Below, in pieces: positions 34,687 to 54,159 of a stretch of 64,000 nt of DNA (position 1 is the first letter of the stretch; each line of letters opens with the position of its first letter). The translations under genes were made by a program, and so were the position numbers. The notes under the pieces were generated by a model that worked only from the letters and a program-made list of their open reading frames with translations, had not been told where the DNA came from and did no database searches. Source of the stretch: an uncultured Pseudoflavonifractor sp. (GTDB lineage: Bacteria; Bacillota; Clostridia; Oscillospirales; Oscillospiraceae); the NCBI GenBank assembly GCA_947425785.1, contig CANEAY010000009.1, positions 28,784-92,783 of the forward strand, read 5' to 3'.

Positions 34687-35079
34687 TCAGCCGCAGCAGC
34701 CACAGCCGCAGCCGTTCCCGCCCTCCATGTGGTCAGGGGGGAAGAACTCATCCACGGGGAATTTCACGTGGCGGAACAGCTCGCAGGGATCCTCCTCGCA
34801 GGAGCCGCCGTCGCAGGTGCACTCCTTCTCCGGCATGCAGTAGTCGTAGACGGGGATGAGCAGCTGGGTGTCCCGCTCCAGGCGGATGAGGGAGAACTGG
34901 CCCAGGGAGACATAGAGCCGCTTGCCCTCGCTGCCGAAGGCCAGGTCGCTGCCGAAGCAGCCGCAGATGCAGGGGGGCACGTCGGTGAGCTCGCACTCAC
35001 AGGTGCACTGGCAGGAGCAATCGCAGGAGCAGGGCTCCACCAGCTTCATCCCCAGCACCAGGGGATCGACGGCCTCCAC
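34687..35079 (-). pseudogene. C-terminal half of an interrupted conserved Cys-rich protein
   Basis: VEAVDPLVLGMKLVEPCSCDCSCQCTCECEL...; continues the frame of 53707..54159 when the element is removed. Confidence 0.85.
35072..35079. repeat. att core copy (left junction)
   Basis: GCCTCCAC, identical to 53699-53706. Confidence 0.85.
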
Positions 35080-35102
35080 GAAAGCGGTTATTTATAGGCA
35101 AC

Positions 35103-36806
35103 TTATGAGACAGCTTTTCCGCCGAGGACGTAAAGCTCTTTCTGGCTGTTCTCTACGAACTCTACGATACGGCGGTATTGGTCTTGAAAATTAAATTCAA
35201 TGTCGATGGAACCATCCTCGTGAATGTAGATGTACCTCACAAGCTCCACCAGCAGGCCGCGGGAAAGGCTCTGGATATTGCGGTATTTCAGGAAAGCGTT
35301 GAGGTATGGGTCGCCTGTGGTGATACCCTGGGCGGCTGTGTTCTGTTCCTCCTGAATGTGGGCCAGCTCACCCCGGAGCTGGGCGGCCTGGGCCTCCAGC
35401 TTTTCCTTCATGCGGCGGTATTGCTCCCGGGTGAGGTCTCCCGCCTTCATGTCCATATAGAGGTCGTCCAGCAGACCATTCACCTTGTCAAGCTCCTGGG
35501 ACTTCTGCTTTTGCAGGGCGTCCAGACGGTTGGACTTGGCAGAGACCGCAGGGGCAGCGTTGACCTCCTCCACCAATTCAGACAGGGAGGCCACAAGCTC
35601 GATCTGCTTCTGGATGGTGACCAGGACGGCCCGCTCCAATATGTCGCCCCGCATGGAGTGCCGGGTGCATCTGTCCTTGCCCTTTTCCTTATATGTCCGG
35701 CAAGTGAAGTAGGTAAAATTTTTGGAGCGGCCCCGAATCATGGCCTTGCCGCAGTCGGCACAGCGGAGGAAGCCGGAGAACAGATAGACATTCTGCTTTC
35801 CCGGTGCTATCCGGGTGTCTCTCTGCATGAGACCTTGGGCCTTGTCAAAGAGGGGGCGGTCAATGATGGGGGTATGGGTGTTCTCCACCACATACCAGTC
35901 CTCCGGGTCGGTATCCCGCCGCTTGTGTACCTTGTAAGAGATGATGGCCTGCCGGCCCTGTACCATATTTCCGATGTAGACCTGATTTCTCAGCACGTCC
36001 CGCACCGTCTTGTCTGTCCATAGCCCATCGTTGTCACGGCCCCGGTGTCCGCTCTGGTGCAGCAGGCCGATTTTATACTTGTGGGCGCTGGGGTTTGGAA
36101 TACCTGAGGCGTTGAGCCGCTTGGCGATACTTGTGGGCTTCATCCCCTCATGGACAAACCAGTGAAAAATATCCCGGACGATGGGGGCGGCGTCCTCGTC
36201 AATGACAAGGGCGTTTTTGTCCTCCGGGTTTTTCAGATAACCATAGGGGGCGAAGGTTCCAATGAACTCACCCCGGTGGCGTTTGGTGTCCAGGGTTCGG
36301 CGGACGTCTGCGCTGGTCTTGGCGGCGTAGCGGTCATTCATCAGGCCATTGATGGGAATTTCCATGCCCTGGGTACAGTCCGGGTCGGCGTAGGTGTCCA
36401 CATGGGGATTGCTGACTGCGATAAAGCGGCACCGATGGGCCGGGATGAACTGCTCCAGGAAGTGCCCCTGGTCGCTGTAATTGCGGAAGCACCGGGAAAG
36501 GGTCTTGCAGATCACGCAGTTTACTTTCCCGGCCTCTATGTCGCCCACCATACGCTGAAAGTCCGGGCGGGCGTCCTCGGTAGTCCCGGAACGGCCATCG
36601 TCTATGTAGAAATCCACAAGGACATAGTCTTCATCCCCAAACTTGTCTTCGATGTATTCCAGAATGATTTTCCGCTGGTTTGTGACGCTCAGGGATTCGT
36701 CGTTTCCGTCGTCCTTTGAGAGCCGAATATAGACTGCAATCAGCCAAAGAACGTATTTCTTCCCATTGGGCATTGTGGGAGTTGGGGACTTTCGGATTCT
36801 TGCCAT
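35103..36806 (-). CDS. Large serine recombinase (integrase of the element)
   Basis: AVYIRLSKDDGNDESLSVTNQRKII resolvase domain, zinc ribbon CADCGKAMIRG...FTYFTC, adjacent to the left junction. Confidence 0.95.
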   Translation of the reverse strand: MARIRKSPTPTMPNGKKYVLWLIAVYIRLSKDDGNDESLSVTNQRKIILEYIEDKFGDEDYVLVDFYIDDGRSGTTEDARPDFQRMVGDIEAGKVNCVICKTLSRCFRNYSDQGHFLEQFIPAHRCRFIAVSNPHVDTYADPDCTQGMEIPINGLMNDRYAAKTSADVRRTLDTKRHRGEFIGTFAPYGYLKNPEDKNALVIDEDAAPIVRDIFHWFVHEGMKPTSIAKRLNASGIPNPSAHKYKIGLLHQSGHRGRDNDGLWTDKTVRDVLRNQVYIGNMVQGRQAIISYKVHKRRDTDPEDWYVVENTHTPIIDRPLFDKAQGLMQRDTRIAPGKQNVYLFSGFLRCADCGKAMIRGRSKNFTYFTCRTYKEKGKDRCTRHSMRGDILERAVLVTIQKQIELVASLSELVEEVNAAPAVSAKSNRLDALQKQKSQELDKVNGLLDDLYMDMKAGDLTREQYRRMKEKLEAQAAQLRGELAHIQEEQNTAAQGITTGDPYLNAFLKYRNIQSLSRGLLVELVRYIYIHEDGSIDIEFNFQDQYRRIVEFVENSQKELYVLGGKAVS

Positions 36807-36876
36807 GCTTTTTGGGGTCTCCTTTCATCACCCCTCTATAATCACAAGCTAATTATATCATATTTTTGCCATCTAT

Positions 36877-37146
36877 TCAACTAAAATCACCACTTTTCAG
36901 AGATAAAAAGTGAGATTTTAACTTTTCTTGCAAGGTTTTTTCCTCGCTGTGGAAGGTGATCCGCACCGGGGTTTCTCCCACCCGGAAGCGGTAGGGGTTG
37001 CCCACCTGGGACAGATAGCTTTCCAGTCGCTGGGCGGGTGTTTCCCCAATAATTTTCACGTCCAGGAGGTCAGAGAGGGCGGTGGGGATTGCCTCTATGC
37101 TGATACGCTCCATTTCTTCCAATTCCTTCTTATCCACCATCGCCAT
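36877..37146 (-). CDS. Small element-borne protein, unknown
   Basis: MAMVDKKELEEMERISIEAIPTALSDLLDVKIIGETPAQRLESYLSQVGNPYRFRVGETPVRITF. Confidence 0.65.
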   Translation of the reverse strand: MAMVDKKELEEMERISIEAIPTALSDLLDVKIIGETPAQRLESYLSQVGNPYRFRVGETPVRITFHSEEKTLQEKLKSHFLSLKSGDFS

Positions 37147-37265
37147 CGCCTCCTTCCTGAACGTATGGCTTTGTGGGGAAAACTATGCTATAAAAACCTT
37201 TTCAGCAGATAGCGGGGAGTACCCCGCTAATCCCCCGGTGGGATGTATCCCTCAACACGGATGAC

Positions 37266-38567
37266 TTACTGTTCCAGGACGCTATCACCAAACAGAAAAC
37301 CCTTGAAGGTCTGCCCCATGTTGGTGACGAAAAGCCCCTTGCTGTCGGGAGGAATCTGCTCTGCGGCGGCGGGGCTGTCCAGGATAATGCGGGAGAGTAT
37401 ATCATCTGCTCTACCGCAGATACGGAAGGTTAGATTTGTGCGGATCTCTCCCGGTATCAGGTTTGCGCTGGGTCTCTGGGTAGCAAGCATAAGGTGGATA
37501 CCAAAGGCTCGGCCTTGTCGGGCGATTAGGGAAAGTTGCCGTACGATCTGGACAAAAAGCTTCTTTTCGGCCTTGTTCAGCTCAGTGGTATCCAAGACTT
37601 CTGCCACCTCATCGCAGGCCAGGATATACCGCTGGAGGTTTGCCTCGGTAGTTTCGTTGTATTCGTCTATATTTGGTGTTCCTGCTGTAAAAAAGAGTTT
37701 CCGGCGGCGTTCCAGTTCAGAGGTCAAGTCCTCCAAGGTGGCCAGCAGGGATTGAGGCTCAAAAACCATCTTGCAACGCCTGTGCCAGGCCGGGGAGTAG
37801 TCCACCCCGCCCTTAAAATCGGCAATGTAAACGGTGGCTCCTTTTTGGAGCGACTGCATGAGCAGTAACTTCAACAGTAGGCTTTTTCCGCTGCCGGTGG
37901 AGCCGCCCAGGAGAATGTGAGGCGTATTGGCTATGTTGATGGTTTCCCTGTTCCCCAGCAGGCCAACCCCCAGGGTTAACACAAAGCTATCCGGGGAAAG
38001 GTACTCGTCCTTCCAGTAGACCATCTCCGGGAGGGTAGAGCGCATGGAGATACCATGAACGAGCATTCTTTTACCATCTGGGGAGAGTTTGACGCTAACT
38101 ACCCGGCAGCGGAGAGCCGCTCCAATTTTTTCCTTGTCCTTCTCCCAGTGGGAAAGCGGGATATTGTCGGGGTCAAACTCATACATGTACCCTTGTTCCT
38201 TTGCCCTACGGATGGAAAACAGCATGGGGGGTGTGCGGGCGGAATTGACGAAGCCAGCCGCAATTAGCGCCGCTTGGATTTCTGCCGACCTTTTGGGTGT
38301 TCCAAGGGCAATAATGATCTCCGGCAGAAGAATGAGGGCTACCAGCAGCAGGGAAAGGCTTACGCTGTGGTAGATCAAATCGTTGCCCCTGGCAAGGGGC
38401 GTAAGCACTTTTGCACGGTTTACCCAAGCCAAGGCCACAATGACCAGATAGGCCAGCGGAATAAGCGCTTTTGCCGGATGGTAGGCGGCCATGTCTCGGA
38501 GACCAGCGGAGAACCGTTGGCGGCGTTCCTGCCGCCGTTTGGCCTGGGTCAGCTTCTTGTTGTCCAT
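37266..38567 (-). CDS. FtsK/SpoIIIE-type ATPase, TcpA-like coupling protein
   Basis: Two N-terminal TM segments; Walker A LGGSTGSGKSLLLKLLL; ATQRPSANLIPGEIRTNLTFRICGR. Confidence 0.92.
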   Translation of the reverse strand: MDNKKLTQAKRRQERRQRFSAGLRDMAAYHPAKALIPLAYLVIVALAWVNRAKVLTPLARGNDLIYHSVSLSLLLVALILLPEIIIALGTPKRSAEIQAALIAAGFVNSARTPPMLFSIRRAKEQGYMYEFDPDNIPLSHWEKDKEKIGAALRCRVVSVKLSPDGKRMLVHGISMRSTLPEMVYWKDEYLSPDSFVLTLGVGLLGNRETINIANTPHILLGGSTGSGKSLLLKLLLMQSLQKGATVYIADFKGGVDYSPAWHRRCKMVFEPQSLLATLEDLTSELERRRKLFFTAGTPNIDEYNETTEANLQRYILACDEVAEVLDTTELNKAEKKLFVQIVRQLSLIARQGRAFGIHLMLATQRPSANLIPGEIRTNLTFRICGRADDILSRIILDSPAAAEQIPPDSKGLFVTNMGQTFKGFLFGDSVLEQ

Positions 38568-38573
38568 TTGTGA

Positions 38574-39539
38574 TTACCTCCATAAAAATGGATTGTCTAT
38601 GTAGTCTTTTGTTTCGAACTCCTGGAACTCGCCGGGAGCGGTGTAGTGTATGACCTTGTATATCCTGCGAAGCAGGGCGGCAAAGGTTGCCGGAGAGGTG
38701 TACTGCTCATCTGGGTACTGTTTGGACAGGCAGAGATTGGAAATGATGTAGACCTTGGTATAGCAGGCCACCCGGTTAGAGTATCGGGCGGGGAGGGTCA
38801 AGGGGTAGCCATCCAGATAGTTGAACAAGTCCCGGATTTTGAAGTTACTGGAATACTCGTCCAACAGGAGTACATCTTCTCCGGCGTAGCTGTCGAAGGG
38901 GTGAGCATAGTCCGTCACCCGGTAGACGCCGGAATAGCTGTGCCTTTCCATGACGGAGCGGGTCTTGCCTGTCCCGGGTGCCCCCCATATGTAGGTTACT
39001 TCCAGCTTGCGAAAGGTCTCGCGGTACTGCTGTTCTCGCATGGCCTGTCTCGCCCGATCTATTTTTTCCAGATTGAGCATATAGTCTGGATTTTGCTCCA
39101 TGATCTCAAAGTTTGAGAGGCCATCCTTGACAAGCCCATAGAGCCGGGCGAGATCAGTCCGTTTACCCTGCCGCTCTATTGGCAGCTCGCCCCATTCCTC
39201 AAATGTCCCGGGGATGGAGGTCTCGGCCTTGTCACTGTCCGTCCATTTCCCCGACTTCTGGACGTAGGCTCGGCACTCTGCCGCCGTGCCATCAGCACGG
39301 TCAAGGTGAGCCGCAGGGAAACGCCGCTTGATAGTGGAAAAGCGGGTGGGGTGTTCCAGAGTAAAGAAGATGTGCGTATGTGGCGTTTGCTCCTTTTCGC
39401 CCTGCTCATCGGCCATACACCAGTAGAGCAAAGAGGAAAATTGCTTTAGCGTCTCTTGAATTGCCTTATGGTCGAGACCCTTTTCAGCGGGATTGTTTAT
39501 GGTCAAGAGCCATTTCCGGCTCTGCGGGTCTTTCGGCAT
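38574..39539 (-). CDS. rep: CRESS-DNA-virus-like replication initiator (HUH endonuclease plus SF3 helicase)
   Basis: Motif I KWLLTINNP, motif II HTHIFF, motif III YVQKSGKW, Walker A WGAPGTGKTRS, Walker B DVLLLDEYSS, motif C VYIISN. Confidence 0.93.
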   Translation of the reverse strand: MPKDPQSRKWLLTINNPAEKGLDHKAIQETLKQFSSLLYWCMADEQGEKEQTPHTHIFFTLEHPTRFSTIKRRFPAAHLDRADGTAAECRAYVQKSGKWTDSDKAETSIPGTFEEWGELPIERQGKRTDLARLYGLVKDGLSNFEIMEQNPDYMLNLEKIDRARQAMREQQYRETFRKLEVTYIWGAPGTGKTRSVMERHSYSGVYRVTDYAHPFDSYAGEDVLLLDEYSSNFKIRDLFNYLDGYPLTLPARYSNRVACYTKVYIISNLCLSKQYPDEQYTSPATFAALLRRIYKVIHYTAPGEFQEFETKDYIDNPFLWR

Positions 39540-39568
39540 TTTATGCCTCCTTTGCGATTGCGATAGAA

Positions 39569-39599
39569 GTTGCCAGAGGTAATACTTGGCTCTGGCAAC
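39569..39599 (-). promoter_or_regulatory. Candidate rolling-circle origin stem-loop
   Basis: Minus strand GTTGCCAGAG-CCAAGTATTAC-CTCTGGCAAC: perfect 10-bp stem, loop contains AAGTATTAC. Confidence 0.8.
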
Positions 39600-39626
39600 C
39601 CGGCGGAGCCTTGCGGCTCCGCCGGG
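39599..39626. repeat. Perfect GC-rich hairpin next to the candidate origin
   Basis: CCCGGCGGAGCC-TTGC-GGCTCCGCCGGG. Confidence 0.8.
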
Positions 39627-39647
39627 AGCCAGCAGTATTTGTGGAGC

Positions 39648-39860
39648 TTACTTGCCAAGTTTCACACCGTGTTGCTCTTGGATATTATCATCGGCTACTG
39701 CCAGGGTCATAGACCCGGTAAGGCGAGTGCCGACCCGGTACTGCCCCTCGATGGTCTCTCTGCTGTTCACATCTGCAATTTCATAAGGCTGGCCTGCCTT
39801 CGAAATGCCTCTGGACACAGGGGCGAGACTGGAAACCATCTTTCCCGTCTGCTTGTCCAT
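39648..39860 (-). CDS. Small protein upstream of rep, unknown
   Basis: MDKQTGKMVSSLAPVSRGISKAGQPYEIADVNSRETIEGQYRVGTRLTGSMTLAVADDNIQEQHGVKLGK. Confidence 0.65.
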   Translation of the reverse strand: MDKQTGKMVSSLAPVSRGISKAGQPYEIADVNSRETIEGQYRVGTRLTGSMTLAVADDNIQEQHGVKLGK

Positions 39861-40150
39861 ATAGCACGAAGTTACAACATACTCCTTGGTCGTAGCGTGT
39901 TTCCTCCTTTCTCCTGCTCGTCAGCAGGGGGCTGCGCCAGGGGTCGTCACTCCTGTGGTGGTCAGCATAACACAGGGTTCTTGTTTTGTACACGCTCCGG
40001 CTGAAACAGGGAATGATGAGCCTGATACACTTTGCGGCACCGTTCTTGTACTCTTTAAACCTTTGAGGTACAATCCCACTTGCAAAAAAGGTTGCCATAT
40101 GCTACCATTGGCACAGATAAGACCACGTTAGAGGGGTAGGGGTGAATAAT

Positions 40151-40723
40151 ATGGCGCAACAAGACATCAAACCCAAGGAGTTTGTTTCTAACGAGGATAT
40201 CAAAGGTTCAATTTCAGCCGCAATGAAAGAATTGTACAAACGCTCCGGCAAACCCTCACATAAAGAGTTTGCTAATATGTGCGGGATTTCAAAAAGCACG
40301 TTTGCAAGGGCGTTAAATGGAAAATTATCTCTAATGACGGCTATACAAATATCGGATGCGTGTTGTGTCAGCCTGGACTTTATTTACAAGTTCGATAAAA
40401 CTTTAAAGCCGACGGTAACACCCTGGGAGCAACATATCATTCCCACTATACAAGAAATGGAATTTTCCAGAGTAAAGTATGCCATTCCTGCCGTTATCGT
40501 TTCCGCCAGTGTTGCAACGTTTTTTGAGGACATTTGGAAAGCTGAACAAGCCAAACTGCCAGAGAAGTTATTGCAGGAGGTAAAAACCCAGGCAAGAGCA
40601 GCACTATCCAAGAGGGGGCCGGACACGGATAAAACAGAGAGGGTGTATGCCCTTATTCCCGTTGAGAAATTCTTGTGTGCAATGCAATTAGATGACCTAG
40701 ATATAAGGCCAGCCCTTGAGTAA
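40151..40723 (+). CDS. HTH-domain transcriptional regulator
   Basis: HKEFANMCGISKSTFARALNGKLSLMTAIQISDACCVSLDFIY. Confidence 0.75.
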   Translation: MAQQDIKPKEFVSNEDIKGSISAAMKELYKRSGKPSHKEFANMCGISKSTFARALNGKLSLMTAIQISDACCVSLDFIYKFDKTLKPTVTPWEQHIIPTIQEMEFSRVKYAIPAVIVSASVATFFEDIWKAEQAKLPEKLLQEVKTQARAALSKRGPDTDKTERVYALIPVEKFLCAMQLDDLDIRPALE

Positions 40724-40742
40724 GCTACTCAAGGGCTGGCCT
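40707..40742. terminator. Convergent terminator overlapping the regulator stop codon
   Basis: GGCCAGCCCTTGAGTA-AGC-TACTCAAGGGCTGGCC-TTTT, perfect 16-bp stem. Confidence 0.9.
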
Positions 40743-40751
40743 TTTCATCCT

Positions 40752-40988
40752 CTATTCCCCTTTTTGTGGCTGGGCCAGGCGATCCATGCTGACCCCCAGA
40801 GCCACGGAGATTTTGTAGAATGTCTCTACCGAGAAATTATAACCGGCCTTTTCGCTTTGTATCTGCCGGATAAAGTCATGGGACAAACCCACCGCCTCCG
40901 CAAGCTGGGCGGAGGTCATGCCCTTCTCCTTGCGGTAGCGGCGAATGTTGGCCCGTATGGTGTCGTATATGTTATGGTCAAATTCCAT
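40752..40988 (-). CDS. XRE-family regulator
   Basis: IRANIRRYRKEKGMTSAQLAEAVGLSHDFIRQIQSEKAGYNFSVETFYKISVALGVSMDRL. Confidence 0.9.
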   Translation of the reverse strand: MEFDHNIYDTIRANIRRYRKEKGMTSAQLAEAVGLSHDFIRQIQSEKAGYNFSVETFYKISVALGVSMDRLAQPQKGE

Positions 40989-41129
40989 GAGCTATCACCT
41001 AACAAAAGTATAGTCGCCATGCTGTTCTTTGTATGTTAGGCGATAGCTCACATTTTCTCTTGCGATAGCCAGGAAGGTATGGTACACTAGAGAAGCAAAC
41101 CCCAAATTTTACCTTGGAGGGACGTAAAG

Positions 41130-41741
41130 ATGAAGAAAAGAGCATTATCCCTTCTCCTGGCCCTGGCGTTGGCTCTTTGTCTGGCCGCTTGCGGTGGCAC
41201 GCCGGAGGAGCCCACTCCGGCTCCCAGCCCGACCCCAAAGGTGACCGCTACCCCTACTCCCACCCCCATGCCGACACCTACCCCGGAACCTACCCCGACG
41301 CCGGAGCCGACGGCCACGCCTACCCCTGCCCCCACTCCCACGCCTACGCTGGAGCCGACCCCGACACCTACGGCTGTACCGGAGGACTACATCTACGGCA
41401 ACGCCATTGGAGAAAAGACTAACAACCCAGTTCCTGCTGCCATCCCTGTGGAGGTGCAGCAGACGCCTGCTCCCGTCGAAACCGTTCCGTCTGCCGTTTA
41501 TCAGGCACCTGTGGTGATTCCCAACAACACCATTCCTCCTGAGGACGACGTTAAAGCATTAACGATTGAAGAAGCTATTGAAATGTTTAACATTTTACCT
41601 GAAACAATAGATGCTATGAAGAACAGCCCCAGCGAGTTTCATGTGGATCCAGAACTTAACAAATTTAACATTAGAGAACCTCGCATAAAGAAGTACAGAT
41701 TTATAGTTCAATATGCCCGACAAAGTTGTAGTAGATTTTGA
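41130..41741 (+). pseudogene. Pro/Thr-rich lipoprotein truncated by the nested element
   Basis: Lipobox LCLAAC, PTPTPEP repeats; native frame probably ends near 41678 and resumes at 49984-50025. Confidence 0.65.
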
Positions 41742-43326
41742 TGTCCCGGTGGGTCTCCCCATCAATCTGGTACTTCTCGCCGACCTCGATGCGCTTTACC
41801 AAACGCAGGAGGGTGGGGCGGTCAAGTTCTTCAAGCTGGGAGTAGTCCCGGATCAGGTTCAGCCAGCTATCGGCGGCGCATTCGTCCTCCCTATGAGACT
41901 CCAACTGCGCCGTGAGCTGTGTCCGCTGTTCCAGCTTTTCCCGGCGCTCCGCCTCGTAGCGGTTCAGCAATTGGACGCACAGCGCCTCCGGCATGACGCC
42001 TTTCACCTTGTCCTCGTAGGCCGCCACCACCAACCTATCCAGTTCGGCCAGCCGCTTATCCAACGCCGCCAGCGTGGCCCGGAGCGTTTTCGTCTGCTCC
42101 AGGGTAGCGGCGTTCTTCTGGGCAAGTATCTTCTCTTTGAGAGCGGCAGGGCTGTTCTGCGCCAGCGTTGCCTTGCAGCGGATGTCCAGCAAAAGCAGTT
42201 GGGCCAGCACCTTGTAGTTGATATAGTGCGAAGTGCAGACCGCCTTGCCGCCGCTCATATACCGATTGCAGGTGTACGCTTTGAATTCACCAAAGTGACC
42301 ATCGGCGTGGCGTTTCCGGCTGCGGTAGTCCTTCTGGTAGCGCATCGACCCGCCACAGTCCATACAGTAGAGGACGCCGGCAAAGGTAGAGATTTCCCCG
42401 TCACTGCCGGAGCGCCCCTTGGATGGGTGATTGTCCAGCCTCTGAACGGCATCCCAGACCTCCTGAGAGATAAGCGGCTCATGGGTATGCTCCACCTTAA
42501 TCCAGTCCTCTCTCGGCTTGCTGATCTGCTTGTGGACCTTGTAGGAGACGGTGCCGGTTTTGTTCTGCACCATGTGGCCGAGATAGACCTCATTTCGCAG
42601 GATAGTCTTGACGGTCACATCGTTCCAGTACGTCGTTTCGCCCCGCAGGTTTGGTCGGCCCTCCGCCATGTAGTAGAAGCCACGCGGCGAGGGTACGCCC
42701 TCCTCATTGAGCGTTCGGGCAATTTTCCGAAAGCTGTCGCCCTGCAAGCGCATATCGAAAATGCGGCGGACAACAGGCGCGGTCACAGGGTCAATTTCGA
42801 GGATGTGCTTGTCCGCCGGAGATTTTCGGTAGCCGATAGGTGCGTAGCATCCGACATACTTTCCGCTCTTGAACGTAGACTGCTTTACCGCCCGAATTTT
42901 AGAACTTGTATCCCGGGCGTACAGGTCATTCATGACGTTCTTCAGAATGACCAGCATCTCGTTGTTCTTGTGAATGGTGTCCACACCGTCATTGAGGGCG
43001 ATGAACCGGCATCCCATACTTGGGAAAACGATGTCCGTATAACGTCCCGCCTCAATGTAGTCTCTGCCAAGGCGACTGAGGTCTTTACATAATATCAGAT
43101 TGATTTTCCCCGCTCTCGCATCAGCAATCATCTGATTGAACATGGGCCGATCGAAGGTCGTACCCGAGACTCCATCGTCACAGTAGGCGGCGTAGAGGTT
43201 CCAGCCCTGCTCCCGCACATACTGGCTGAGCATAATTTTCTGATTTTCAATGGACACGGACTCCCCGGTTCTCTCGTCATCGCGGCTGAGTCTGCAATAG
43301 ATTCCAACATTGTAGTTTTCCTGCAT
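41701..43326 (-). CDS. Large serine recombinase (TnpX-like)
   Basis: MQENYNVGIYCRLSRDDERTGESVSIENQKIMLSQYV; zinc ribbon CMDCGGSM. Confidence 0.94.
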   Translation of the reverse strand: MQENYNVGIYCRLSRDDERTGESVSIENQKIMLSQYVREQGWNLYAAYCDDGVSGTTFDRPMFNQMIADARAGKINLILCKDLSRLGRDYIEAGRYTDIVFPSMGCRFIALNDGVDTIHKNNEMLVILKNVMNDLYARDTSSKIRAVKQSTFKSGKYVGCYAPIGYRKSPADKHILEIDPVTAPVVRRIFDMRLQGDSFRKIARTLNEEGVPSPRGFYYMAEGRPNLRGETTYWNDVTVKTILRNEVYLGHMVQNKTGTVSYKVHKQISKPREDWIKVEHTHEPLISQEVWDAVQRLDNHPSKGRSGSDGEISTFAGVLYCMDCGGSMRYQKDYRSRKRHADGHFGEFKAYTCNRYMSGGKAVCTSHYINYKVLAQLLLLDIRCKATLAQNSPAALKEKILAQKNAATLEQTKTLRATLAALDKRLAELDRLVVAAYEDKVKGVMPEALCVQLLNRYEAERREKLEQRTQLTAQLESHREDECAADSWLNLIRDYSQLEELDRPTLLRLVKRIEVGEKYQIDGETHRDIKIYYNFVGHIEL

Positions 43327-43438
43327 CTTGATTTTTTTACCTCCCTGGACGCAGGTACATGGCATCGTGTTACCTGATGCCATTATACCCGCTTTATCAC
43401 TGTAAAGCAATAACCTCCCTCGCAAAAACAGGAAAAAT

Positions 43439-43657
43439 TTATGCCGTCTGCCGCCGGTTTCGCTCCAGTTCTATCGTGTCCAGCACCTCACCCATACCCG
43501 CCTTTTCAGAAAACCTGCTGATCAGGTGATAAGTCACTCCGTCTATCTCCACGTCAAGCCCCAGGTTCAAAAATGCGTTTCTCTGCCCTCCATACTCAAA
43601 GCCGGGAAACATCCCCTCGATGGCAATTTCTACAGGCTGTTTTTCAATTTCCCTCAA
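43439..43657 (-). CDS. Small protein of the nested element
   Basis: MREIEKQPVEIAIEGMFPGFEYGGQRNAFLNLGLDVEIDGVTYHLISRFSEKAGMGEVLDTIELERNRRQTA. Confidence 0.6.
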   Translation of the reverse strand: MREIEKQPVEIAIEGMFPGFEYGGQRNAFLNLGLDVEIDGVTYHLISRFSEKAGMGEVLDTIELERNRRQTA

Positions 43658-44103
43658 GCGATACCTCCCATTCTCCGCAAGGTGTCCACGGTGTTGCCAA
43701 GCGCATTGTAAAGCCCCTGATTTTGGGGATTTTCCATACTGACCTTCGCCGCCATTCGGATTTTCCGCAAAGCGTTTTCTACCTCCCGTGTCGTGTACCC
43801 GGCTTGAACGGCATCAATCGCAAGATTAGCGAGGTAGACGCAATCAGTGCGGGACAGCCTGTCCTGCATGACCATTCGACCGAGCTGTTCCAGAACACCA
43901 TCCCGCGATTTCAGAGTTTTCGCCTCCATGCTCTCCAGCCATAGCAGTTCCCTGTTTTGAATTTCGGCAGCGGCTACCGATAACAGGTGGACGCCCTCGT
44001 ACATATACATCTTGTTCAGTGCCTGCCGCCGGCTGGGGGCGTATTCCTCCGTGATGTGGGCGTCCAGTTTTGGTCTGCCCCGTCTGCGCTTGATTTCCTC
44101 CAT
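43654..44103 (-). CDS. Helical protein of the nested element, unknown
   Basis: MEEIKRRRGRPKLDAHITEEYAPSRRQALNKMYMYEGVHLL; 4-nt overlap with the next ORF. Confidence 0.65.
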   Translation of the reverse strand: MEEIKRRRGRPKLDAHITEEYAPSRRQALNKMYMYEGVHLLSVAAAEIQNRELLWLESMEAKTLKSRDGVLEQLGRMVMQDRLSRTDCVYLANLAIDAVQAGYTTREVENALRKIRMAAKVSMENPQNQGLYNALGNTVDTLRRMGGIA

Positions 44104-44132
44104 GTTCACCAATCCTTTCGTAAAAAACAAAA

Positions 44133-44192
44133 ATGCAGATACAATAAGACCGCCCACAACGATAAGTTGCGGTTCGGTCTATGTATCTGCAT
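44133..44192. repeat. Long interrupted stem-loop upstream of 44103
   Basis: ATGCAGATACA ... TGTATCTGCAT plus inner AGACCG/CGGTCT pairing. Confidence 0.75.
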
Positions 44193-44795
44193 GGAAAAAA
44201 TATAAACAGTATTCAGTTCCCTATTATCATAGCACAAACGGATGTTCCTGTCAATGGTCGCGGAGAAATTTTTGTCAAGGGTCGGCGAAAACAGGGGGTG
44301 CAACCCCATTCCCGGAACGGGGTAGGAAACGCAAAATCAACAGCGGACGGCAGCCCTAAAGCGGCAGAATGCCGCGCAGCCAGACCAGCGGAGCGGTCTG
44401 TTCCGAGGGTTTGGGAAACTTCCCAACGAGCAGAAACAGCAGGTTCCGGCAACGCCGGGAATCGCTGTTTCGAGCCTTTGTATATACAAAGGCACTGCTC
44501 GCGCAGGATAGCAGACCACTATCAACGGGTCAAAAATGCCCGTTGATTTTGGTGGCAGGTTTGTCATCGCCACTCCGGGAAGTGACCTTTGGGCGGAAGT
44601 GCGCTACTGCGCGAGCAATGTATTTGTTCCCACAAATACGCAAAACGGACTTTCAACGTTGCCGCCGAAAGTCCGTTTTTACTCGTTGGGGCCGTACCCC
44701 AAAACCCCGTGAACAGCCCCTCGCCGGGGCTGGCTGCGCGTTCGATTCCCGAACGCTGAGGATTACATACATCTGCAAAATGTTGACTTGATTGA

Positions 44796-47075
44796 TCAGT
44801 ACCAATCGTGTTTTTCGTTCCGGTCAAGGGCATTGATCTGTGCCATTTCAGCGTCCGTCAACGTGAAACCGTACAACTCTGTGTTTTCTTTTATGTGGTC
44901 GGAATTGCTGGAGCCAGGAATGACTACAACGCCCTTTTGCAGATTCCACCGGAGGATTACCTGGGCCGAAGATACGCCGTGGCTTTTGGCGATGGCGGAG
45001 ATCACTTCATTGCCCAGTAATTCCGCCGTGTGTCCCCGGCCTCCCAGGGGATACCAGCCCTGTACCACGATACCAAGGTCCTGGATATAGGGGATCACAT
45101 CATTCTCCTGGTAGTAGGGATGGATTTCATTCTGTACCAGCGCCGGGGTGATCGTCACCTGGGGAAGAAATTCTTCCAGCTCCTTCACATACCAGTTGGA
45201 CAGACCCAGGGAGCGGATCTGCCCCGATTCCACAAACGTCTCCATGGCCTGATATGCTTTGACATCGTTCCGGTCGGGATGGTGGAGCAGCATCATATCC
45301 ACATAGCCGATGTTCAGCCGGTCCAGGCAGGCTTGGAGGGAAGATTCCGGGTCAGCCATTTCGCTGCCCGGATAAATTTTTGTAATCACGAAAATTTCTT
45401 CCCGCTTAATGCCCAGTTCCTCCATGGCCTCCCGGATGGCCTGCCCCACTTCTTCCTCATTGCCATAGGCGGAGGCGGTGTCGATCAGCCGGACCCCGCT
45501 GGCCAAAGCGGATTTCACGGAATTGACACAGGTTTCCCCATGCAGACTGTAAGTCCCCAGGCCATTGATGGGCATTTCATAGCCGCTGTTGAGGGTAACG
45601 GTTCTCGTTTCAAAGTTGAACCTGCCGGGAGAATCAGAAGCCAAGGCAAACGTAATATCCACATCTCCGCCGTCAAGGGCCTCCCGCAGGCCGCTGGGGT
45701 CGTCAATTTTGCCCAGCCGGGTAAAGCTCCAGGAGTTTTCTGCGTAGTAGACAGTGATCTGATTCCCTTGATAAAGGATAATGTCCCCTGGAGAGGTTGT
45801 GATTTGCTCATCATTTCGGGGCAGCGTGGCTCCTAACGCTCCGACCTTCTCAAAACTGCCGTAGTCATGGGCGGAAACCGTCAGTGGGCCGTTTTTCAAC
45901 AGCTCGGCAAAGGCTTTTGCGGAGGAATTATCTGCCAGAGTAGCGGGGTAGGTATGCCCATTGAAGGAAACATTGATTTTGGTTGCAGCAGACTCGTTAT
46001 GTGACGGTAGCTCCAGACCACTGATCCACTCCTCCATCGTACTCCGAGAGGTTCCGCTGGCAAACCGGCGTCCGGCAAACCAGTTTGCACCGCTGGCCAG
46101 AGGGTGCAGATTTGTGTCACTGGAGCCGATGCCGCTGGAATGAGAGGTGCAGAAGGGGACGATAGTCTTTCCGGTGAAGTCATAGCTTTCCAGGAAGGTG
46201 TAGATGATTTTGGGAGCTTGGCCATGCCAAATGGGATAGCCAAGGAACACCACATCATAGTCCGCCATGTTGTCCACGCTCCCGGAGATAGCGGGGCGGG
46301 CAGAGGAATCATTCTGTTCCTGGTCAGCCCTGCCGTTGGTGTAGTAGGCCAAGTCAGCCTCCGTATAGGGAACCTCCGGTACGATCTCATAGAGGTCAGC
46401 GTTCAGAATGTCGGCCGCATACTCCGCCAAAGGGCGGGTGGTGTTGGTGGCGGAGAAATAGGCCACCAGAATTTTGGATTTCATCACCGGGTTATCCTCC
46501 GTATTCAGCTTATCGTAAAGCTCCACTGCTATTTCGGCGCGGGTAGCGGGGACAGCCAGGGATGCATCGCCAGTCCACACAGGACTCTCTCCGGCATAGC
46601 GTCCCAGGATGACGGTAAGCTGTTCTTTTGTTACCGGGTCGTTGACGCCAAAGACGCTGTTGCCATAGCCTTGAATCAGTTTTTGCTCCGCCGCCCATAT
46701 TGCGGCATCCGTGTACCAAGCCCCGGCCTCTGCATCGGAAAAGACCGATGTGCCGCTGACGGCCGGACTGCCCGCCGCCCGGTAGAGGACGGTCGCCAGC
46801 ATAGCGCGGGTCAGTGTCCCGTTCGGGTCAAAACGGTTGCCGTCCACACCAGCCATCAAACCGTTTTCCTTGCACCATGCCACCGCCTGAGCATACGGGG
46901 CATCCGCAGGAACATCGGTGAAAGCGGCCGTGGGCTGGGTTTCAGATGTAAGCGTCGCGCTGTTCACATCCGTTCTGCCGCTGGCGGAGGGAACCTCCGC
47001 CGCAGAGCAGGAGGTCATGGTTAGGCAACACATCATGCAGACTGCTGCTATCAAGGAAAGAACTCGTTTTTTCAT
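44796..47075 (-). CDS. Lipoprotein with SLH, flavodoxin, cyclophilin-like and aldo/keto reductase domains
   Basis: Lipobox MTSCSAAE; SLH FTDVPADAPYAQAVAWCKENGLMAGV; flavodoxin ILVAYFSATNTTRPLAEYAAD; cyclophilin-like INVSFNGHTYPATLADNSSAKAFAELL; AKR MPINGLGTYSLHG...LLHHPDRNDV. Confidence 0.9.
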   Translation of the reverse strand: MKKRVLSLIAAVCMMCCLTMTSCSAAEVPSASGRTDVNSATLTSETQPTAAFTDVPADAPYAQAVAWCKENGLMAGVDGNRFDPNGTLTRAMLATVLYRAAGSPAVSGTSVFSDAEAGAWYTDAAIWAAEQKLIQGYGNSVFGVNDPVTKEQLTVILGRYAGESPVWTGDASLAVPATRAEIAVELYDKLNTEDNPVMKSKILVAYFSATNTTRPLAEYAADILNADLYEIVPEVPYTEADLAYYTNGRADQEQNDSSARPAISGSVDNMADYDVVFLGYPIWHGQAPKIIYTFLESYDFTGKTIVPFCTSHSSGIGSSDTNLHPLASGANWFAGRRFASGTSRSTMEEWISGLELPSHNESAATKINVSFNGHTYPATLADNSSAKAFAELLKNGPLTVSAHDYGSFEKVGALGATLPRNDEQITTSPGDIILYQGNQITVYYAENSWSFTRLGKIDDPSGLREALDGGDVDITFALASDSPGRFNFETRTVTLNSGYEMPINGLGTYSLHGETCVNSVKSALASGVRLIDTASAYGNEEEVGQAIREAMEELGIKREEIFVITKIYPGSEMADPESSLQACLDRLNIGYVDMMLLHHPDRNDVKAYQAMETFVESGQIRSLGLSNWYVKELEEFLPQVTITPALVQNEIHPYYQENDVIPYIQDLGIVVQGWYPLGGRGHTAELLGNEVISAIAKSHGVSSAQVILRWNLQKGVVVIPGSSNSDHIKENTELYGFTLTDAEMAQINALDRNEKHDWY

Positions 47076-47092
47076 GTTGTCCCTCTCATCAA

Positions 47093-48073
47093 TTAACGAA
47101 GATTGTCTTGAAAGAAAGCTGTCAGCTTATCAAAGGGGATCGCGTCCTTACTGCCGCCGTCGTACAGATCGGTATGCACGGCATCGGGGATGATGAGCAG
47201 TTCCTTGTTGTCCCCGGTCAGTTTGGCAAAGGCATCCCTGCTGAAATAGTAGGAGTGGGCCTTCTCACCGTGAACCAGCAGGACGGCGCTGCGAATCTCG
47301 CTGGCATAACAGAGGATGGGCTGGTTGAGGAAGGACATACAGCCGATTTTGTTCCAGCCGCCATTAGAGTTGAGGGAGCGGGCATGGTAGCCCCGGCTGG
47401 TCTTGTAGTAGTTGTAGTAGTCCTTCACGAAGAAGGGGGTGTCCTCCGGGAGCGGGTCCACCACGCCGCCGCCCAACTCGTAGCTGCCATTTCTATAGTC
47501 CACGATCCGCTGGGCATTCATGGCTTTCCGCTTTTCGTGGCGGCTCTCAGCCGTGTTCTCGTCGTCAAAGTAACCCTGAGCGTTCACACGGCTCATATCG
47601 TACATGGTGATCGCGGCGGTGGCTTTCACGCGGGTATCCAGCGCGGCGGCGTTCAGCGCCATGCCGCCCCAGCCGCAGATGCCGATGATGCCGATCTTCT
47701 CCGGGTCCACATTCTCCTGGACGGAGAGAAAGTCCACCGCCGCCTGGAAGTCCTCGGTGTTGATGTCGGGGGAGGCCATGTAGCGGGGAGTGCCGCCGCT
47801 CTCGCCGGTAAAGGAGGGGTCGAAAGCGATGGTCAGAAAGCCCCGCTCCGCCATAGTCTGGGCGTACAGCCCGGATGCCTGCTCCTTCACCGCGCCGAAG
47901 GGTCCGCAGACGGCGATGGCCGCCAGTTTCCCGGTTGCGCCCTTGGGCTGATACAGGTCCGCCGTCAGAGTGATGCCGTAGCGATTGTGGAACGTCACCT
48001 TGCGATGCTCCACTTTGTCGCTCTTGGGAAAGGTTTTATCCCACGCTTGGGTCAAAATCAGGTTTTCTTCCAT
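47093..48073 (-). CDS. Alpha/beta hydrolase (dienelactone hydrolase-like)
   Basis: GITLTADLYQPKG; GIIGICGWGGMALNAA; VHGEKAHSYYFS. Confidence 0.88.
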   Translation of the reverse strand: MEENLILTQAWDKTFPKSDKVEHRKVTFHNRYGITLTADLYQPKGATGKLAAIAVCGPFGAVKEQASGLYAQTMAERGFLTIAFDPSFTGESGGTPRYMASPDINTEDFQAAVDFLSVQENVDPEKIGIIGICGWGGMALNAAALDTRVKATAAITMYDMSRVNAQGYFDDENTAESRHEKRKAMNAQRIVDYRNGSYELGGGVVDPLPEDTPFFVKDYYNYYKTSRGYHARSLNSNGGWNKIGCMSFLNQPILCYASEIRSAVLLVHGEKAHSYYFSRDAFAKLTGDNKELLIIPDAVHTDLYDGGSKDAIPFDKLTAFFQDNLR

Positions 48074-48085
48074 TTTAGATTCCTC

Positions 48086-48322
48086 CTAAAATTGTTTTTG
48101 CTTTTCAATTTGATAGACCAGATAATCCAGGCAGTCGATGTGTTTCTCGTTTTCGTGAACGGTGTCCAGCAGCTCCCGCCGGTGACAAGCGAGAACGCAA
48201 AGCAGCTTTGCTTGTTCGTTTGCTCTTGCCAAAGCAACACACTGGGTGATGGTATCTGAACCGCATCCGGCATCCAGCAAATTCTGACGAAAGATGCCTT
48301 CAACATCCGATGCTTCTGCCAT
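48086..48322 (-). CDS. Small conserved-looking protein
   Basis: MAEASDVEGIFRQNLLDAGCGSDTITQCVALARANEQAKLLCVLACHRRELLDTVHENEKHIDCLDYLVYQI. Confidence 0.75.
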   Translation of the reverse strand: MAEASDVEGIFRQNLLDAGCGSDTITQCVALARANEQAKLLCVLACHRRELLDTVHENEKHIDCLDYLVYQIEKQKQF

Positions 48323-48448
48323 ATCATCACCTCCCTGTGTCATTATGATAGGGCATCAGCAGTGAAATAGCAAATACTTCGTTTCTATATCATATTATTC
48401 TTGAATAGAATAACATGGTCTGTTATACTGTCTCTATGAGGTGATAAA

Positions 48449-49333: not shown

Positions 49334-49441
49334 AATTGCCATCTGTAACGCATAAACGCCCACAGCCGACAGACCTGTAAGCAAGTCGGCTGTGGGTGTT
49401 CGCACTTTCTTAGCGGCGCATTTGCAAGGGTTTTGAACTCG

Positions 49442-49843
49442 TTAAGCGTTAATCATCTCGCTCCTGATGATTTCCTCGGCACGACTGACAATGCCGTTCA
49501 TCGCCCGTATCCAGTCCCACTGGGAGTGCCGCTTCAAGTCCTCAGTCACGCCTTCGGCCTCGGCCACCTGCCGGACAATGAGCCGGTATCGGTCCTACGC
49601 CTGTTCGTTAAGGTCAGCAAGGTAGGTGTGCAGCTTGCCCGTCAAAATCAGGTGATTGAGCAACAGCGGGTTCGTTTCCTCCAGGTAGGTCCTGTGCATC
49701 TGTCCCCACTTTCCAATGGGGCGGTCACCGTCCTCCGGCAGTTCGATGGTCGGAATGTAGTAGTCCCCGGCAAGGACATAGTCAAGGTCAGTCTGCTCGT
49801 CATGGATACGCTTTTCCAGTGCGCTCATAGTATTTACCTCCAT
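49442..49843 (-). pseudogene. tnpV: TnpV-like transposon protein with in-frame TAG
   Basis: ...HTYLADLNEQA*DRYRLIVRQVAEAEGVTEDLKRHSQWDWIRAMNGIVSRAEEIIRSEMINA; single TAG at 49595-49597. Confidence 0.75.
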
Positions 49844-50071
49844 TATTTTTGGTAGCCGCTACCGATAATACGATGTGCGGTATGAAGCGACTCCTGTTTG
49901 TGGTGCAAATCAACTCTGTCGGAGGTAACACGGATGCTATGTCCTGCGTTTGATGTCGTTCTTTATGAAAGGGTCACATTCAAGAAACTATGGACAACAC
50001 CATGAATGCACTTTACGGCGAGTAATAAATGCAAATAAAAATGCAGGAGACGCTTGAGTAGGATAAACACG

Positions 50072-50097: not shown

Positions 50098-50120
50098 TAT
50101 ATTGTTCACTATGTTTACTT

Positions 50121-50985: not shown

Positions 50986-51018
50986 TTGATTTTGTCCTAT
51001 ATTTGTGTATAATATAGG
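50986..51018 (+). promoter_or_regulatory. phd-doc promoter with overlapping operator palindrome
   Basis: TTGATT - 16 nt - TATAAT; CCTATATT...AATATAGG (50996-51018) spans the -10. Confidence 0.75.
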
Positions 51019-51031
51019 TGAGGTGATTTTT

Positions 51032-51283
51032 ATGACCGTAGAGACCAGTACACTCGTGCCTATGACTGAGGCCAACCAGAACTTTTCCAAAGTGACCCGG
51101 CTGGTGGATGAAGCGGGGCTTGCCGTGATCCTGAAGAACAACAAGCCCCGGTATATCGTGGTGGATTTTGAGGAATACGATGAGCTACAAGCCGTTCGTA
51201 CCGCCCGGAAGCAGAAAATCGAGGCTACTGCTGACCAGCTGATTGCCGAGAATCTGGAAGCGCTTCAGGAGTTGGCGAAATGA
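51032..51283 (+). CDS. Phd/YefM-family antitoxin
   Basis: MTVETSTLVPMTEANQNFSKVTRLVDEAGLAVILKNNKPRYIVVDFEEYDEL. Confidence 0.92.
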   Translation: MTVETSTLVPMTEANQNFSKVTRLVDEAGLAVILKNNKPRYIVVDFEEYDELQAVRTARKQKIEATADQLIAENLEALQELAK

Positions 51284-51657
51284 TTTTACTAACCGTCGAT
51301 GAGATCATCATGCTTCACGATAAGTTGTTAACAGCTACCGGGGGCCTGCCGGGACTGCGAGACCGGGGACTGCTTGAATCCGCTGTATTCGGCGTCAACG
51401 CCAGCTTCGAGGACGTGGAGCAATACCCCACGGTGGAGGAAAAAGCCGCCCGGCTTGCATATGGGCTGATCAGCAACCACGCCTTTGCAGACGGCAACAA
51501 GCGTGTGGGGGTGCTGGCTATGCTTATGACCTTGCGGCTAAACGGCGTTAATTTGCAGTATACCCAGCAAGAGTTGATCGACTTGGGCCTTGCGGCGGCA
51601 AGCGGCACGGCGGGAAACAAAGAGATTTTGGGGTGGACTATTTTGCACAAGTTATAA
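51280..51657 (+). CDS. doc: Doc/Fic-family toxin
   Basis: Fic motif HAFADGNKRVG; overlaps the antitoxin stop. Confidence 0.94.
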   Translation: MILLTVDEIIMLHDKLLTATGGLPGLRDRGLLESAVFGVNASFEDVEQYPTVEEKAARLAYGLISNHAFADGNKRVGVLAMLMTLRLNGVNLQYTQQELIDLGLAAASGTAGNKEILGWTILHKL

Positions 51658-51661
51658 GCAA

Positions 51662-52447: not shown

Positions 52448-53113
52448 ATGAATTACAAGAACTTTTCAGCACGTAGGAGTCCAATTGATTGTGTAAATGC
52501 CCGGTTAGTGAGGAATGCTGAGTACAGCAAAACTGGGCTACCGCTATTTGAGTGTTCGAGTTCAATTCCAACTGAACTAATCTCTTTTAAAAATGCCGCC
52601 CAGTCTAAGGATGCTCATGAGTGGGTACATTTTTTTGAAAATGATGCTCGCTTAGAGCTTATATGGGAGAGCCCGGAGCGTTGGGTTGACCGGCTTGGTC
52701 GCTTTAGGGGGATTATTTCTCCTGATTTTAGCGTGTGTCGAGACGATCCCCTGTATGTACAGGGATGGAATACTTATCGAAACAGAGTGCTAGCTTACCA
52801 TTTCTCCGAGCATGGCTTTGAAGTGATCCCCAATATCCGACTGGGTGCGCCAAATTCTTACTTCTTTTGCCTCGATGGGATTGAGCCACATAAACCTGTA
52901 TGCGTGAGTACCCTTGGAGTATTGGCCTCGCATGAAGATCGAAAATCTTTCCAAGAAGGATTTGCCGAAATGATAAAGCGGCTTTCACCGAGTTCTATTA
53001 TTGTTTATGGGCAGATGCCGACAGATATTTTTGGACAGTATCAAGCGGCGGGCATCCCTTTTACCCACTTTGATACTGATGCGTGTAAGGCGAGAAAGTG
53101 GAGGGATGCCTAA
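52448..53113 (+). CDS. DUF4417-like protein
   Basis: RFRGIISPDFSVCRDDPLYVQGWNTYRNRVLAYHFSEHGFEVIPNIRLG...VSTLGVL. Confidence 0.75.
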   Translation: MNYKNFSARRSPIDCVNARLVRNAEYSKTGLPLFECSSSIPTELISFKNAAQSKDAHEWVHFFENDARLELIWESPERWVDRLGRFRGIISPDFSVCRDDPLYVQGWNTYRNRVLAYHFSEHGFEVIPNIRLGAPNSYFFCLDGIEPHKPVCVSTLGVLASHEDRKSFQEGFAEMIKRLSPSSIIVYGQMPTDIFGQYQAAGIPFTHFDTDACKARKWRDA

Positions 53114-53532
53114 TGGGTGGAGGACGGTCAGGATTGTTTCACGGCACGGAGGGAGCAGATGTATATCAGCAATCACTTTTTCCTGAAGCAATTGCTGTTC
53201 GGAGGAGGGGTGCTACCTATATATCAGCTGTAGGTGGTGTTTCCGGTAGTGGTTTTGCAGGTAACCCAGATAGAGATAGGCTTCATGTTCTTACGGTCAA
53301 AGAGGTTCTTGAAAAGTTTATGGATTATCGCTATGGTGATATATCTGAATTCCAACTTGTACAATGGATTCAAGGAGTTTTGACAAAGAGACACTATTAT
53401 ATAGAACCTTTTTTGCGGTGTGCACTTATAAAGGGGCTTGCCGCATTGAAGAACACAAAAACAGCTTCGCAAGTATATGATAAGGTGAGATTTCTCATTG
53501 AAATTGAAAAGATAGAAGCTGAAATATGTTGA
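53113..53532 (+). CDS. Small protein translationally adjacent to the DUF4417-like gene
   Basis: MGGGRSGLFHGTEGADVYQQSLFPEAIAVRRRGATY... Confidence 0.65.
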   Translation: MGGGRSGLFHGTEGADVYQQSLFPEAIAVRRRGATYISAVGGVSGSGFAGNPDRDRLHVLTVKEVLEKFMDYRYGDISEFQLVQWIQGVLTKRHYYIEPFLRCALIKGLAALKNTKTASQVYDKVRFLIEIEKIEAEIC

Positions 53533-53581: not shown

Positions 53582-53698
53582 CTATTTTTGGCCTCGAGGC
53601 AGGATAGGGACAAAAGAGCGGGGGCCGATGGTCGGCCTCCGCTCTTGCGTGATTATAGAGGGTTTTCTTGTGTTCTGAGCCGTTGCCCATAAATCACC

Positions 53699-53706
53699 GC
53701 CTCCAC
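53699..53706. repeat. att core copy (right junction)
   Basis: GCCTCCAC, identical to 35072-35079. Confidence 0.85.
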
Positions 53707-54159
53707 CACGGCCACGGGCTGGTTGGCGCTGGGCAGGTTCTGGCAGTCCAGGGAGTCCAGGCTCATCTCGGAGGAGAAGGACTTGGAGCAGCCCTCGCTG
53801 CCGAAGAGGATGACCCGCTTGTCAAAGACGGCCAGGCCGCAGACCTCCACCGGCCGGGCGGCGCCCACGAAGGCGTCGGCGGTGATGCGGTAGAAGTAGC
53901 GCACATCCACGGTGTAGAAGCCCCGGTTGAAGCAGATGGGCTCCACGTTGGTGGAGACGTACAGAAGCTCGGCCTTGCCGGCCTTCACGCAGCTGGCCCG
54001 ATCCAGGGCGCACTGGGAGCTCTGGGTGAGATAGACGCGAAGATCCTCGATGCAGTCCTTGTCACGGCATGCGTCCATGATCTTCCTGGTGTGTACACAT
54101 ACGGCCTCGCGGATGCCGGCGGCATCGCAGACGGGACCGGGCATGACCTTTTCAGGCAT
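53699..54159 (-). pseudogene. N-terminal half of the interrupted conserved Cys-rich protein
   Basis: MPEKVMPGPVCDAAGIREAVCVHTRKIMDACRDKDCIEDLRVYLT...NQPVAVVEAV. Confidence 0.85.

Follow-up and report, generated by a model that had tools for sequence, protein, structure and literature searches.

The 18.6-kb element described here is a candidate integrative and mobilizable element (IME) in which a virus-type Rep and a TcpA-type coupling ATPase would form the mobilization module, with the replication origin serving also as origin of transfer (oriT) and with transfer depending on a helper, and to this reading as a whole we give a probability of roughly 0.6. The element lies within a 64,000-nt stretch of DNA from an uncultured Pseudoflavonifractor sp. 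(contig CANEAY010000009.1), which is called the window throughout. Excision, nicking, the dual role of Rep and the use of a helper are the steps that we infer. Judged from its sequence, Rep is a candidate initiator of both replication and transfer, and that it acts as the relaxase at the same origin is plausible and, in our estimate, somewhat favoured.

Comparison with empty sites in 12 same-genus genomes set the element at window positions 35072-53706. In those genomes the stretch corresponding to 34687-35079 is continuous with the one corresponding to 53695-54239, such that the halves of the interrupted host gene meet at window 35079/53695. Both junctions have in common, at the expected place, the 8-bp core GTGGAGGC, which is present as a single copy in the empty sites, and the arms beside the cores and inside the element (TTGCCTATAAATAACC and GGTGATTTATGGGCAA) show the layout expected of a serine-integrase attP (Table 1). 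The sequence-only reading had described a minimal mobilization block, and while "minimal" does fit the core, the element is not confined to that block; an element that ends at the regulators, 6 kb in length, was rejected because the empty sites put the host-gene halves 18.6 kb apart. The element is thus integrated at defined att sites and has its own serine integrase, and a Pfam scan of its main ORFs revealed mobilization genes with a coupling protein only and no type IV secretion system (T4SS) of its own, which is the make-up of an IME. No circular form of the element was found in IMG/VR, where Rep matched one contig at 52% only and the FtsK-like protein gave no match, and CRISPR spacers beside the element gave no convincing match to it or to its relatives.

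Table 1. Features of the element and its flanks, in window coordinates
Feature	Position	Strand	Basis or remark
3' half of interrupted host gene (Cys-rich protein)	34687..35079	-	intact in 12 same-genus genomes
attR core GTGGAGGC	35072..35079	-	direct repeat of 53699-53706
attR arm TTGCCTATAAATAACC	35086..35101	-	imperfect inverted repeat of attL arm
Large serine integrase	35103..36806	-	PF00239, PF07508, PF13408
DUF6870 protein	36877..37146	-	PF21757, E 3e-17
Likely TcpA-type coupling ATPase, fused form	37266..38567	-	PF01580, E 9e-18
CRESS-type Rep (HUH endonuclease + SF3 helicase)	38574..39539	-	PF02407, 7lar match
Predicted origin stem-loop	39567..39601	-	nonanucleotide AAGTATTAC at 39579-39587
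G+C-rich hairpin abutting origin stem	39599..39626	-	folding; in most close relatives of Rep
orf70, small all-beta protein	39648..39893	-	alignment and AlphaFold of G181 homologue
Phage-repressor-like regulator	40142..40723	+	phrog_8, E 1e-4; divergent
Cro/CI-type HTH regulator	40752..40988	-	PF01381, E 2.5e-10
Phd/Doc-type toxin-antitoxin pair	51005..51657	+	PF02604, PF02661; common to G181 element, aligned in L051
DUF4417 protein and small ORF, left end	52448..53532	+	PF14386, E 2e-49; common to G181 element
attL	53683..53706	-	core GTGGAGGC 53699-53706, arm GGTGATTTATGGGCAA 53683-53698
5' half of interrupted host gene	53695..54159	-	empty-site comparison

Read along the minus strand, the core runs from the HTH regulator through a small ORF, two hairpins, Rep, the FtsK-like ATPase and the DUF6870 protein to the large serine integrase, and an ORF check found all ORFs at the coordinates and on the strand that the sequence-only reading had given for this gene order. 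The genome G181, of the same genus, has at this site a related element of 11.8 kb, which aligns with the window from the left end down to ~50976 and, on the right side, over 34687-39930, with differing DNA between the aligned ends. The small ORF (orf70), earlier placed at 39648-39860, is present and probably starts upstream, as alignment with its G181 homologue suggests a start at 39893, where the window has ACG and G181 has ATG. AlphaFold predicted the G181 homologue to be all-beta (pLDDT 80), and Foldseek gave no significant match for structural relatives of orf70. Its identity with a known ssDNA-binding or RstB protein was rejected after a PDB profile search that found nothing meaningful and a PHROG match to RstB at E 0.07. 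The DUF6870 protein adjoins this integrase in loci L031/L051 and L099 as well and is possibly a directionality or accessory factor of the integrase. By Pfam, the cargo includes an SLH-flavodoxin-aldo/keto-reductase protein, a hydrolase and a LysR regulator, alongside the Phd/Doc pair, the DUF4417 protein and a second serine recombinase, which lies within 41-44 kb, where the window does not match the G181 element. A lipoprotein gene (41130-41741) may have been split by this second recombinase, but homologues yielded no second half.

The Rep of the element matched Viral_Rep (PF02407, E 3e-7) above the Pfam cut-off and RNA_helicase (PF00910) weakly and below it, and its best match among solved structures was the 7lar Rep (E 5e-17), which we take to be that of PCV2. 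Its HUH motifs I (LTINNP), II (HTH) and III (Y92VQK) are intact, as are the Walker A (GAPGTGKT), Walker B and C motifs of its SF3 helicase, the combination that marks a CRESS-type Rep. Across 50 aligned Reps, the endonuclease residues N15/N16, H54/H56, Y92 and K95 and the helicase residues G186-K192-T193 of Walker A, E228 and N268 are each kept in at least 95%. The sole plasmid match of Rep was a 4488-bp plasmid of Bifidobacterium pseudocatenulatum.

Just upstream of rep, the origin hairpin of the sequence-only reading is present and turned out to be two abutting hairpins (39599-39626 and 39567-39601), the second of which has a 12-bp stem and a CCAAGTATTAC loop (minus strand GGGTTGCCAGAG-CCAAGTATTAC-CTCTGGCAACTT; DNA folding z = -5.0). 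The loop nonanucleotide AAGTATTAC fits NANTATTAC, the nonanucleotide consensus of circovirus and geminivirus origins. The interval scanned in 49 Rep loci began 400 nt before the rep start and ended 150 nt after it; a hit was any NANTATTAC enclosed by a stem with 7 or more Watson-Crick pairs, and 100 dinucleotide shuffles served as background. The scan revealed a hairpin with a NAGTATTAC loop just upstream of rep in 39 loci, always on the rep strand; none of the 49 loci had such a hairpin on the other strand, and the 100 shuffles produced it in no locus. The remaining 10 loci include some with the motif in an interrupted or wobble-paired stem, while others are cut by a contig end or have no motif. 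Loop variants across the 39 loci were TAGTATTAC (21), CAGTATTAC (10), AAGTATTAC (7) and TACTATTAC (1). Stem sequence varies with pairing retained, because the arms pair at 10.6 of 12 positions within a locus versus 4.2 when swapped between loci, and all four Watson-Crick pairs occur at the outer stem positions. The G+C-rich hairpin was discarded as a general origin part, being found in a subset of loci only, mainly those of close relatives of Rep. With motifs and origin both conserved, and common to inoviruses, rolling-circle replication by Rep from this stem-loop is very likely.

Downstream of Rep, the FtsK-like ATPase possesses the two N-terminal hydrophobic segments (at about residues 31 and 69) that the sequence-only reading had called transmembrane helices, followed by a Walker A motif (GSTGSGKS) at 222. 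Its best solved relatives were 6o1w/6o1x/6o1z (E 5e-49 over residues 91-428, versus 2.5e-16 for FtsK), named "DNA translocase coupling protein" by their depositors and presumably the pCW3 TcpA series, and a four-sequence profile widened the gap (coupling protein 5e-73 versus FtsK 3e-24). The best plasmid homologue (35% identity) lies inside the conjugation (tcp) operon of Enterocloster bolteae pCbo51, where the genes after it encode a conjugal transfer protein, TcpD and TcpE, and an ATP-binding protein. An FtsK_SpoIIIE domain, N-terminal transmembrane helices and a sequence nearer that of a conjugation coupling protein than that of FtsK make the ATPase a likely TcpA-type coupling protein.

Evaluating the element for other transfer genes, we found no match to MobP, MobV, MobQ, MobC or MobT among its 19 main ORFs with Pfam, and an NCBIfam scan of the core ORFs returned no canonical relaxase either. 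The two scans agree with the earlier claim that a MobP, MobV or MobQ relaxase is missing, and the Pfam scan of the main ORFs of the 18.6-kb element detected none elsewhere in it, a finding that would have spoken against Rep as initiator of transfer. A resident helper was sought in the 93%-complete assembly with PF02534 (VirD4), PF12642 (TcpC), PF03432 (MobP) and PF02486 (Rep_trans), none of which matched, while positive controls did. Across the bacterial family, VirD4-type genes are common (127 of 301 genomes) and TcpC is rare (2 of 301). A published proposal holds that such IMEs use only TcpA/FA helpers; if so, few local helpers are predicted, because TcpC is rare. Alternatively, the element-encoded TcpA may dock on FATA-type pores. 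Rep and VirD4 co-occur (19/28 versus 108/273, Fisher p = 0.005), an association to which we give no weight, since genome size and relatedness probably confound it.

Relatives of Rep were present in 28 of the 301 genomes of the family, with 15 further loci in a second collection plus circular inovirus records, and fell into four arrangements. In arrangement A (the window and 13 others) Rep is followed by a fused TcpA, whereas in arrangement B the coupling ATPase lies upstream of Rep, mostly as two polypeptides that usually overlap, the first (~200-270 aa) having transmembrane segments but lacking a Walker A motif and the second (239-307 aa) carrying one. Arrangement C has no detected coupling ATPase, some of its contigs being cut short (for example L033), and arrangement D comprises inoviruses with Zot (L046-L050). 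A coupling-type ATPase lies within ~2 kb of Rep in 28 of 42 non-phage loci, and the survey of serine recombinases proposed earlier placed a serine integrase downstream in 6 of these 42, five of the six with a coupling ATPase. In the Rep tree, the window and L051 nest within the split-upstream-ATPase clade B (sister L052, 100/99; 13-row set, 96/95), and arrangement A requires at least three changes on the starred branches; in the ATPase-domain tree the fused TcpAs form one clade (100/99), with long branches joining the two ATPase types and the deep root unsure. The Rep tree alone does not separate gain from loss of the fused TcpA, and the simplest reading of these phylogenies is that the window element descends from one in which a fused TcpA took the place of a split coupling ATPase, and that this kind of replacement occurred repeatedly.

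A second kind of exchange is seen at the same att site, where the integrases of G181 and G309, two other genomes of the genus, are 88% and 87% identical to that of the window. The 5.0-kb G309 element (L099 12430-17472) has this integrase and DUF6870, but in it Rep and the fused TcpA give way to a 323-aa protein (14310-15281) and a coupling ATPase of the split type, whose first ORF (12865-13254) is apparently frameshifted and whose second spans 13395-14207. By itself the 323-aa protein gave a sub-threshold Rep_trans match (E 0.011), and the only entries retrieved by a three-sequence profile were two replication initiation proteins, 4cwe (E 5.5e-5) and 4cwc, both of which we assume to be Rep_trans proteins of the pT181 type. 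The slot beside the integrase thus takes either a CRESS Rep with TcpA or a Rep_trans-like protein with a coupling ATPase. Rep_trans is the family of MobT, the relaxase in ICEBs1, Tn916 and ICESt3, which for ICEBs1 and Tn916 also acts in replication, according to PMC5357655, PMC5704250 and PMC12857230. Of the computational evidence presented, the G309 substitution speaks most strongly for functional equivalence of the two modules; it is not proof of relaxase activity.

Three independent lines, namely the conserved Rep origin, the repeated replacement of the coupling protein and the replacement of the module at the same integrase and site, support a partnership between Rep and the coupling protein. 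In the mechanism that we favour, the serine integrase would recombine attL with attR and release a circle, both att sites being defined. Rep would bind the stem-loop that precedes rep and nick the rep-sense strand in the loop, with the nick expected at TATT/AC by analogy with circoviruses and geminiviruses, and Y92 would keep the protein joined to the 5' end. Unwinding of the strand would fall to the SF3 helicase of Rep, and the excised circle would be copied by rolling-circle replication in the cell; given a mating pore from a conjugative element, the element's own TcpA coupling ATPase would hand the Rep-bound strand to that pore, such that the replication origin would double as oriT. A broader proposal, which we hold only tentatively and at a little under even odds, is that virus-type origin and Rep constitute a working oriT and relaxase in one cassette, common to chromosome-borne mobilizable elements (from which a succession of TcpA-type ATPases, fused or as two polypeptides, would send out the product by conjugation) and filamentous phages (in which Zot would extrude it), and that the export route of this cassette can be swapped.

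The main rival, which we consider unlikely, holds that the element is a rolling-circle plasmid that has integrated, with Rep confined to replication and the TcpA-like ATPase in an independent role, moving double-stranded DNA or partitioning the circle. Double-stranded DNA movement has reportedly been proposed for the TcpA of pCW3. Of the related Rep loci, about a third lack a detected coupling ATPase and filamentous phages with Zot account for another five, so the Rep lineage, with its shared origin, can replicate without TcpA; a 2025 T4SS review also reports the suggestion that TcpA may pass double-stranded DNA (PMC12857230). Against this, the coupling ATPase is retained beside Rep in two-thirds of the non-phage loci (the 28 of 42 above) and has been replaced several times yet remains adjacent, G309 pairs such an ATPase with an initiator of the family that includes proven MobT relaxases, and the window ATPase is nearer a conjugation coupling protein than FtsK. 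Less probable again is a decaying element that has lost excision and mobilization in this strain: the ACG at the orf70 start, the second serine recombinase in its divergent stretch and the lack of a detected helper in the genome would fit such decay, but Rep, TcpA, integrase, att sites and origin are all intact, and the same-site G181 element retains full-length ORFs at 87% (Rep) and 68% (TcpA) identity. Slightly less probable still, and in our view very unlikely, is a relative or remnant of a filamentous phage with Rep and origin from an inovirus and the ATPase replacing Zot in extrusion, since, although Reps 46-51% identical occur in circular inovirus records with Zot and most share the hairpin type, Pfam found neither a Zot (pI-like) ATPase nor coat-like genes in the window element, its ATPase is of the TcpA rather than the Zot type, and in the Rep tree the closest relatives of the window Rep are not those of inoviruses.

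If Rep is the relaxase of the candidate IME, a class of integrated gut Clostridia elements that looks relaxase-less would be mobilizable and overlooked by relaxase-based typing. If true, a small defined module of a circovirus-type origin, one Rep and one coupling ATPase would also allow a test of whether viral rolling-circle Reps and conjugative relaxases are linked, as has long been suspected, and the Rep_trans module that naturally replaces it at the same site would serve as control.

The idea of a PF02407 Rep as relaxase with TcpA is already known from 2017 for two streptococcal IMEs, so the literature invoked in the sequence-only reading does exist: Rel_PF02407 + TcpA IMEs form class 7 in Coluzzi 2017 (PMC5357655) and Guedon 2017 (PMC5704250), with two elements and transfer undemonstrated, and a passage of PMC7168690 repeats the pairing for S. 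suis without transfer data. Like class 7 (IME_SiniSF1_ebfC), the window element is integrative, has a Viral_Rep-type protein (PF02407 by Pfam) as sole relaxase candidate, carries TcpA and lacks its own T4SS. It differs in that in class 7 the integrase is of the tyrosine type and tcpA precedes the relaxase gene, whereas the window has a serine integrase, TcpA downstream and cargo on an 18.6-kb element; in the streptococcal survey, all RCR-type relaxases occur with tyrosine integrases (PMC5357655, PMC5704250). ICEBs1 and Tn916 similarly pair a replication-initiator-type relaxase with TcpA, but their MobT is a Rep_trans protein unrelated to the HUH-SF3 Rep and they carry their own FA-type T4SS; it is the G309 element at the same site that resembles them through its Rep_trans-like protein. 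Among the pCRESS plasmids and integrated elements (p4M-like, pCRESS1-3), compared by motifs, bacterial elements that are integrated likewise encode a Rep with HUH and SF3 domains, and motif III of the window Rep (YVQK) is not the YLxH that defines the pCRESS4-8 supergroup (PMC6668415); the main text of Kazlauskas 2019 does not mention FtsK, an integrase or the nonanucleotide. 'Bajarodino' inoviruses (PQ006121, PQ006124, PQ006138, PQ006165, PQ006184) have Reps in the 46-51% identity range and, in most, the hairpin type, but carry Zot and phage genes where the window has TcpA and a serine integrase. The origin is of the circovirus and geminivirus kind, a stem-loop with a NANTATTAC loop (mostly TAGTATTAC in our set) upstream of rep, found here in bacterial elements and inoviruses and with stem sequences that vary freely. 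Relative to the main texts of the key papers, and as far as the literature shows (supplements may describe some of these), what appears new is a serine integrase with the PF02407 relaxase class and TcpA downstream, a virus-type origin conserved across bacterial elements and inoviruses, and repeated coupling-protein swaps that include a two-polypeptide form, together with a Rep_trans substitution at the same att site.

Upstream of rep, the coupling ATPase is encoded as two adjacent or overlapping ORFs in loci L032, L034, L035, L040, L042-L044, L052, L054 and L056, such that the membrane part possesses TM helices and no Walker A while the motor part possesses Walker A and no N-terminal TM. Because the split is kept across many elements, it probably represents a genuine two-polypeptide coupling protein. 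A split coupling ATPase also occurs, together with a Rep_trans-like initiator, on a 5.0-kb element in the same-genus genome G309, and a close homologue of that initiator lies elsewhere in the genome of G181 (L101), likewise adjoining a split ATPase.

Within the 18.6-kb window element, a second large serine recombinase and two small genes fall in a stretch that the G181 element does not share and possibly form a nested element, whose ends were not found. One cargo ORF of the element encodes an unusual fusion protein that joins SLH repeats to domains of the flavodoxin, cyclophilin-like and aldo/keto reductase types. For the small all-beta protein encoded upstream of the origin, the start codon reads ACG rather than ATG and the ribosome-binding site is retained; this copy may have lost its function. 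Past the left end of the element lies a CRISPR array with a cas2-like ORF, and no spacer of the array convincingly matches the element or any of its relatives.

Coordinates of the features (window positions unless a locus is named)
Feature	Position	Remark
ACG codon, small all-beta protein	39891-39893	
Second serine recombinase and two small genes	41701-44157	
Fusion ORF	44796-47075	
CRISPR array	54604-55237	~32-bp repeats, 9 spacers
cas2-like ORF	55408-55878	assigned by eye
5.0-kb element	L099:12430-17472	integrase and att site as in window element

The Rep family is common to the integrated elements and filamentous phages (46-51% identity; bajarodino virus records L046-L050, inoviruses), and the NAGTATTAC hairpin of the integrated elements is also present in most of these inovirus records.
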